A DNA stretch of 64,000 nt from Kutzneria buriramensis (GTDB lineage Bacteria > Actinomycetota > Actinomycetes > Mycobacteriales > Pseudonocardiaceae), in assembly GCF_003387475.1 (NCBI RefSeq), contig NZ_QUNO01000001.1, forward strand, positions 496,001 to 560,000, written 5' to 3'. Each line of letters opens with the position of its first letter. The stretch's first letter is position 1. The notes under the pieces are model-generated. The model worked only from the letters and a program-made list of their open reading frames with translations, did no database searches and was not told the origin of the DNA. Made by a program: the position numbers and the translations under genes. Positions 43,579 to 44,772 of this stretch are shown here, in pieces.

Positions 43579-44772
43579 GTGGCGAAGGCGAAGTTCGAGC
43601 GGACCAAGCCGCACGTCAACATCGGCACCATCGGTCACGTCGACCACGGCAAGACCACGCTGACGGCGGCGATCACCAAGGTTCTGGCCGACAAGTACCC
43701 GGACCTGAACGCCGCGTTCGCGTTCGACCAGATCGACAAGGCGCCGGAAGAGAAGCAGCGCGGCATCACGATCAACATCTCGCACGTCGAGTACCAGACC
43801 GAGAAGCGCCACTACGCGCACGTCGACGCCCCCGGTCACGCGGACTACATCAAGAACATGATCACCGGTGCCGCCCAGATGGACGGCGCGATCCTGGTGG
43901 TCGCCGCGACCGACGGCCCGATGCCGCAGACCCGCGAGCACGTGCTGCTGGCCCGCCAGGTCGGTGTGCCCTACATCGTGGTGGCCCTGAACAAGGCCGA
44001 CATGGTGGACGACGAGGAGATCCTGGAGCTCGTCGAGCTCGAGGTCCGCGAGCTGCTCTCGGACCAGGAGTTCCCCGGCGACGACGCTCCGGTCGTGCGC
44101 GTGTCCGGCCTCAAGGCCCTCGAGGGCGACGAGAAGTGGGCCCAGTCGGTGCTGGAGCTCATGGACGCCGTGGACGAGAACGTCCCGGAGCCGGTCCGTG
44201 AGGTCGAGAAGCCGTTCCTCATGCCCGTCGAGGACGTCTTCACCATCACCGGTCGTGGCACCGTCGTCACCGGCCGCATCGAGCGCGGTGTGGTCAAGGT
44301 GAACGAGGAGGTGGAGGTCGTGGGCATTCGCGAGAAGGGCTTCAAGACGACCTGCACCAGCATCGAGATGTTCAAGAAGTTCCTCGACGAGGGCCGCGCC
44401 GGTGACAACGCCGCGCTGCTGCTCCGCGGTGTCAAGCGCGAGGACGTCGAGCGCGGCATGGTCGTGATCAAGCCGGGCACCACCACGGTGCACACCGAGT
44501 TCACGGGCAACGTCTACATCCTGTCCAAGGACGAGGGTGGCCGGCACACGCCGTTCTTCAACAACTACCGGCCGCAGTTCTACTTCCGCACCACCGACGT
44601 GACCGGCGTCGTGACCCTCCCCGAGGGCACCGAGATGGTCATGCCGGGCGACACCACGAACATGAGCGTGAAGCTGATCCAGCCGATCGCCATGGACGAG
44701 GGCCTGCGGTTCGCCATCCGCGAGGGTGGCCGCACCGTCGGTGCCGGCACCGTCGAGACGATCACCAAGTAA
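43579..44772 (+). CDS. tuf: Translation elongation factor Tu, unusual antibiotic-site residues
   Basis: A 397-residue EF-Tu with GHVDHGKT (19-26), DAPGHADY and NKADMVDD. Domain II has two notable residues: Ser261 in CTSIEMF and Ala279 in GDNAALLL. By alignment with E. coli they correspond to G257 and G275, whose changes to Ser and Ala each give GE2270A resistance. The kirromycin-site residues (Q124, G316, Q329, A375 equivalents) and the pulvomycin-site R333/T334 equivalents are unchanged. GTG start with AGGAGG upstream. It is the last gene of the str operon. Whether a second tuf exists elsewhere in the genome cannot be seen here. Confidence 0.98.

Follow-up and report, generated by a model that had tools for sequence, protein, structure and literature searches.

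The only full tuf gene found in the genome of Kutzneria buriramensis, located in the window (the whole stretch of 64,000 nucleotides analysed here), encodes an elongation factor Tu (EF-Tu) with serine and alanine at the equivalents of Escherichia coli Gly257 and Gly275. Both residues belong to a block of six linked positions that is fixed in the genomes of the genus examined and whose gain or loss is a recurrent event in the family. We take the two changed glycines to be known sites of GE2270A resistance; the new element is the coupled block together with its repeated appearance. Our preferred reading, to which we assign a probability of about 0.6, is that of a recurrent natural EF-Tu variant which, judging from its residues, would show reduced sensitivity to thiazolyl peptides and provide background resistance in soil, and not self-resistance tied to a biosynthetic cluster.

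The window EF-Tu and its six-residue block

The gene lies in the usual str-operon place, in the order rpsL, rpsG, fusA, tuf, rpsJ, rplC, as deduced from a list of open reading frames in which the neighbours of tuf were named by recognition:

43579..44772, + strand: tuf (EF-Tu), 397 residues with a GTG start codon, from its translation and the Pfam domains GTP_EFTU, D2 and D3
41343..43442, + strand: fusA (EF-G), upstream neighbour in the str operon
45188-45493: rpsJ, between tuf and rplC
45522..46172, + strand: rplC (ribosomal protein L3), downstream neighbour

Among the best loci listed, named str-operon EF-Tus of actinobacteria are 80–87% identical to its product. The first-pass annotation had advised a search for further tuf genes, and a PF03143 profile search returned one match in the genome (11.97 Mb in 65 contigs, 100% complete, 4.93% contamination), which is the single full copy found; by the same single match, no divergent second tuf of the Streptomyces EF-Tu3 type, beside a normal tuf1, was found in the genome. 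The remaining protein-search matches were discarded as second tuf genes, with identities of 40% or less. All but one of them (37% or less) are presumably other translation-type GTPases, and the 40% match is a lone EF-Tu domain-II-like frame of about 90 residues close to the end of contig C50 (L198, positions 6145-6405, minus strand), which aligns with residues 211-303 of the window EF-Tu. We conclude that the window tuf is the housekeeping EF-Tu gene, and the effect of its residues must therefore allow growth.

Residues were mapped by HMMER alignment to PDB chain 3u2q ('Elongation factor Tu 1'), which we take to be E. coli EF-Tu. Ser261 and Ala279 stand opposite its Gly258 and Gly276, which become Gly257 and Gly275 once the initiator Met is left out of the count; the first-pass annotation had placed the pair at 44359..44415 with this same equivalence, and the translation and the alignment agree with it exactly. 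Its further observation that the kirromycin site (Q124, G316, Q329, A375) and the pulvomycin site (R333/T334) are spared was likewise borne out, since all these partners are unchanged when counted in the 3u2q alignment. The GE2270A-resistant type is defined by Ser at 257 and/or Ala at 275, and the window EF-Tu has both. In the work of Zuurmond and colleagues from 2000, G257S and G275A in E. coli EF-Tu reportedly give resistance to GE2270A, and its title claims that resistant EF-Tu permits aminoacyl-tRNA binding in the presence of the drug.

A column comparison in which each genus contributed one row for each of its states (19 Ser/Ala and 27 Gly/Gly, after the residues at 257 and 275) revealed a block that reads, in E. 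coli numbering, 257S, 258I, 262K/N, 264F/M, 274A and 275A. Columns 261, 266 and 279 of the window protein split the two states completely, columns 278, 262 and 268 nearly so, and the next best column reaches only 0.66. Within the 98 genomes of either state, the departures from this block are four Gly/Gly with Ile262, one Gly/Gly with Ala278 and four Ser/Ala with Leu268. The block is found in the window as follows, with Ser261 and Ala279 placed by translation and the 3u2q alignment and the other four by translation and column comparison:

44359..44361, + strand: Ser261 (E. coli 257), codon AGC
44362..44364, + strand: Ile262 (E. coli 258), linked position
44374..44376, + strand: Lys266 (E. coli 262), linked position, published GE2270A contact (PMC8183687)
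44380..44382, + strand: Phe268 (E. coli 264), linked position
44410..44412, + strand: Ala278 (E. coli 274), linked position, published GE2270A contact (PMC8183687)
44413..44415, + strand: Ala279 (E. coli 275), linked position, published GE2270A contact (PMC8183687)

Four of the six positions recur in the set of 12 strongest GE2270A contacts that PMC8183687 gives for structure 1D8T (D216, G222, R223, T256, G257, E259, F261, R262, N273, V274, G275 and L277), a list that does not include 258 and 264. The probability of such an overlap by chance is 7e-6 over the 397 residues, and a weak 0.07 within residues 254-280. Invariant in the 101 genomes of the family sample described below are T260, E263, F265, N277, L281 and R226; the constancy of R226 and E263 implies that the R223/E259 salt-bridge pair is kept. 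The window partners of contacts 216, 222 and 223 are residues 219, 225 and 226, of which the tally over the 101 genomes covered 226.

Distribution and repeated appearance in the family

Ser/Ala is present in all seven genomes of the genus examined, our own included, and we found no report of a lineage-wide Ser257/Ala275 in the open-licence PMC literature, subscription papers being outside the scope of the search. Confirmed candidates among named EF-Tu loci number 592, and the best 80 of them comprise 73 Gly/Gly, four Ala/Gly and three Ser/Ala, the latter from Actinoalloteichus spitiensis, Spongiactinospora sp. TRM90649 and Microlunatus endophyticus; outside the family, as judged by genus names, Ser/Ala thus occurs in two of 75 named loci within these best 80 of 592. 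A pattern scan of 200 genomes of the family gave matches in 186, with Ser257 in 59 of the 150 among the matches listed (hand count). Six of the 14 genomes missed by the pattern have a full or split tuf, and all six belong to genus g31; the other eight drafts gave no tuf match at 1e-60.

For the detailed comparison, the str region of 100 of these 200 genomes was hand-picked to cover genera and combined with our own window, in a sample of 101 that is chosen and not random, and that represents 45 of the 46 genera, most of them by one to four members. It contains 53 Gly/Gly, 45 Ser/Ala, two Ala/Gly and one Ser/Gly genomes, with Ser/Ala in 19 of the 45 genera sampled. Most genera are uniform (17 all Ser/Ala, 25 all Gly/Gly) and two are mixed, namely g5, with Ser/Ala in one of nine genomes, and g45, with one of five. 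The remaining three genomes are those of g31, with Ala or Ser at 257 and Gly at 275. The first-pass annotation had accepted as a counter-argument that most relatives with a GE2270A-sensitive EF-Tu might share Ser and Ala; as far as the residues go, both are common to relatives, within the genus and in close to half of the family sample.

Phylogenies agree on a repeated change of state. In a tree of the flanking RpsL, RpsG, FusA, RpsJ and RplC proteins (1296 columns; RplC left out for G097 and partial for G083 and G104), explaining the Ser/Ala label takes 11 changes, of which the starred branches force six or more, against an average of 33 for shuffled labels. A tree of tuf without columns 255-285 needs nine, with at least five forced. 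A single clade of all Ser/Ala genomes is rejected on both (p-AU 1e-42 for the flanking proteins and 0.00035 for the tuf backbone), and with it a single origin of Ser/Ala. Both are quick trees on which gain and loss are not distinguishable, and joint transfer of tuf with its linked flanking genes could hide events.

The Ser257 codon in the 45 Ser/Ala genomes is AGC in 25 and TCG or TCC in 20. Because a single step leads from a Gly codon to AGC but not from AGC to TCN, at least two routes to Ser257 are likely, and the Ala/Gly forms might be the bridge to the TCN codons.

Transfer of whole genes as the only cause of this pattern is not supported: without columns 255-285, the tuf of G124, the sole Ser/Ala genome of g5 in the sample, remains in the clade of its own genus, and that of G028 is placed among Gly/Gly genera. 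The first half of the G124 gene (L292) is closest to its Gly/Gly kin, and residues of about 201-325, in the domain II region, match Ser/Ala genomes of other genera better. This stretch is possibly an exchanged one, to go by a sliding identity that sets the best of many Ser/Ala genomes against five kin and so proves nothing by itself; the same procedure showed no clean foreign stretch in G189. We tentatively propose, as something that may well prove wrong, that the housekeeping EF-Tu has switched repeatedly, as a six-residue block, to a form pre-resistant to thiazolyl peptides in roughly two fifths of the family's sampled genera, in part through short tuf exchanges between species. If so, soil thiopeptides would keep an essential translation factor under standing selection, and the tuf genes of non-producers would bear its trace.

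A pocket shared by drug and tRNA

Aminoacyl-tRNA faces competition from GE2270A for its binding site on EF-Tu (PMC4307249), and the thiopeptide pocket overlaps that site (PMC4307249, PMC7136475). The domain II pocket carrying the block would thus be the binding place of both the aminoacyl-tRNA end and the thiazolyl peptides. There, the side chains of Ser257 and Ala275 would occupy space where the glycines let GE2270A pack, 262K/N would remove an arginine contact, 274A would shorten a valine contact, and 258I and 264F/M may repack the layer underneath. The block should then weaken the binding of GE2270A-type compounds, or allow aminoacyl-tRNA to bind in their presence. The factor still works, since it is the sole EF-Tu copy found, and a naturally reduced sensitivity of the window EF-Tu appears likely.

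Because the pocket is also the aminoacyl-tRNA site, tRNA binding could by itself drive the block, which would then be an alternative packing of the pocket, with no antibiotic role in its selection and whatever side effect on drug binding. Such a neutral or tRNA-driven origin would account for the two of six linked positions (258 and 264) that are off the contact list of PMC8183687, and it agrees with the sharing of the pocket described above. It also fits the existence of Ala257/Gly275 in four of the best 80 named loci and in two g31 genomes, with Ser/Gly in the third, as well as the lack of association of tuf type with thiopeptide enzymes reported in the next section. We nevertheless consider it unlikely: both changed glycines are GE2270A-resistance sites, Ser/Ala is scarce among the named loci outside the family, and contact residues that change together time and again are not what drift usually produces.

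The preferred reading, a natural variant of reduced sensitivity, is best compared with known resistant factors. The resistance of Planobispora rosea is presumably due in part to positions 257 and 275 too. Like the window EF-Tu, its GE2270-insensitive EF-Tu is encoded by a str-operon tuf that is apparently the sole copy, which indicates that such an EF-Tu can support a cell (PMC3943966, PMC4514598, PMC12309360). Experiments in Streptomyces coelicolor are described in PMC12309360 and PMC3943966: exchanging tuf1 for its P. rosea counterpart made the strain resistant but severely slowed its growth, attempts to obtain a working tuf1 bearing four P. rosea point changes failed, and the P. rosea tuf conferred no resistance when the native gene was also present. 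By analogy, these results would fit a need for partner changes; they also warn that single residues may not be the whole trait. The E. coli mutants reportedly have the same residues at the same positions, but as single changes, whereas the window EF-Tu combines both with four partner changes in a natural protein.

Streptomyces EF-Tu3 is a natural GE2270A-resistant EF-Tu outside a GE2270 producer (PMC12309360), a description that would extend to the window EF-Tu if it is indeed resistant; unlike the window tuf, it is encoded by a second, divergent gene, of which no full counterpart was found in our genome. Elsewhere, tuf3-like second genes are present in G117, G036, G070, G069, G330 and G450 (L148, L149, L150, L427, L428 and L429); all six have Gly257/Ala275 and are 62–65% identical to the window protein.

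The two mixed genera offer natural sister pairs (one Ser/Ala with four Gly/Gly genomes, and one with eight) that allow asking about the switching of pocket states, namely how an essential and highly conserved protein moves between two coupled states.

A thiopeptide-type cluster in the same genome

The first-pass annotation had also advised looking for a thiopeptide cluster, and one was found on contig C14, at about 125.7-140 kb, with tuf on contig C1:

L193:13723-13971 (C14:125722-125970): precursor of 82 residues, NF033399 at 62.5 bits (cut-off 29)
L193:14007-16763: Lant_dehydr_N, domain match
L193:16764-17744: Lant_dehydr_C, domain match
L193:17748-18845: TbtD/PbtD pyridine synthase, NF045556 at 477 bits (cut-off 325)
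L194:21-1226: SagB, domain match
L194:383-3262: frame with ThiF-like and YcaO-like parts, domain match
L194:3166-5241: SagD/YcaO, domain match
L194:5421-8985: two ABC transporters, domain match

With its split dehydratase (Lant_dehydr_N plus Lant_dehydr_C), this cluster shares its enzyme set and leader family with those for GE2270, thiomuracin and GE37468; NF033399 is the thiomuracin/GE37468 precursor family, and leader and pyridine synthase, both above their cut-offs, are of the thiomuracin/GE2270 kind. The two profiles are not specific for Asn, as they also match quite different cores, e.g. SCTTCVCVCSCCTS in G072.

The core differs. Its first residue was placed by aligning the leader to GE2270-type precursors, and it reads SSSSHCSGSCSC, with Ser at core position 3, where EF-Tu-binding thiopeptides have Asn. 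A ring from Ser1 to Ser11 would have 29 atoms, although with four Ser in a row the residue that closes it is ambiguous. The core is some 40 residues long and has a variable tail rich in Gly, His and Trp (GGWDGGWGWGGGHGGGHGHW), unlike those of GE2270, thiomuracin and GE37468; thiopeptide cores usually have 12-18 residues, far fewer than this. Relatives of the precursor occur in L357, L358, L359 and L360, with tails that vary between congeners; core starts are near-identical in G000 (our genome), G002, G003 and G004, and the core of G006 is divergent. In PMC7136475 and PMC3917276, EF-Tu-binding thiopeptides are characterized by a 29-atom ring and a conserved Asn, the latter lacking in the macrocycle of the C14 core as placed, and GE37468 analogues with Ala, Cys, His or Ser in place of Asn were inactive (PMC3917276).

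The first-pass annotation had proposed natural resistance to GE2270/amythiamicin-type compounds, as producer or as exposed neighbour, and it is the producer half that is not supported; the exposed-neighbour half comes close to our preferred reading. Self-resistance of a producer, in which the organism would make a thiazolyl peptide that hits EF-Tu and be protected by its own EF-Tu, as in P. rosea, is suggested by the enzyme set and precursor of C14, by a pyridine synthase above cut-off in five of the seven genomes of the genus, and by Ser/Ala in eight of the ten family-sample genomes with the enzyme; cluster and resistant-type EF-Tu coincide in our genome and in eight others. Even so, we find it quite improbable. 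All six congeners share the residue pair, including two (G001 and G005, the latter a 93% complete draft) with no NF045556 match, and the pair extends to 19 of 45 genera. The 8:2 split stems from two genera per side. NF045556 exceeds its cut-off in 10 of 200 family genomes and in nine of 394 class genomes, our own included in the latter, and the 18 distinct genomes are nine Ser/Ala and nine Gly/Gly. The Ser in place of Asn argues against the C14 product as a ligand of EF-Tu, given the inactive GE37468 Ser analogue. Finally, cluster and tuf are on separate contigs: YcaO and Lant_dehydr_C (PF02624, PF14028) match on C3, C6, C14, C15, C17 and C30, and none of these matches is on the tuf contig C1, unlike in P. 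rosea, whose tuf is found shortly downstream of the pbt cluster according to the sources cited above.

We read the cores of our own genome, G002, G003, G004, G006, G069, G072, G388, G528, G330 and G340, of one of two clusters in G489 and of a candidate in G091, and none has Asn at core position 3 as placed. This absence of a GE2270-type core covers the cores read, with candidates doubtful in G215, G236 and G360 and none settled for G158 and G171, and it means that the comparison has no positive control genome. The precursors of G330 (Ser/Ala) and G340 (Gly/Gly), two genomes from a different family, closely resemble each other and represent a further kind. The C14 cluster thus probably does not explain the tuf type. 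If the block confers resistance, GE2270-class resistance would be a widespread natural variant among actinomycetes. A tuf with Ser257/Ala275 would then not mark its host as a producer, a point of importance for resistance-guided genome mining.

Further YcaO matches in our genome outside the C14 cluster are located at C17:103301-105776 and C17:191056-192096 (L195, L196) and at C15:272118-273029 (L197), and include one neighbouring pair.
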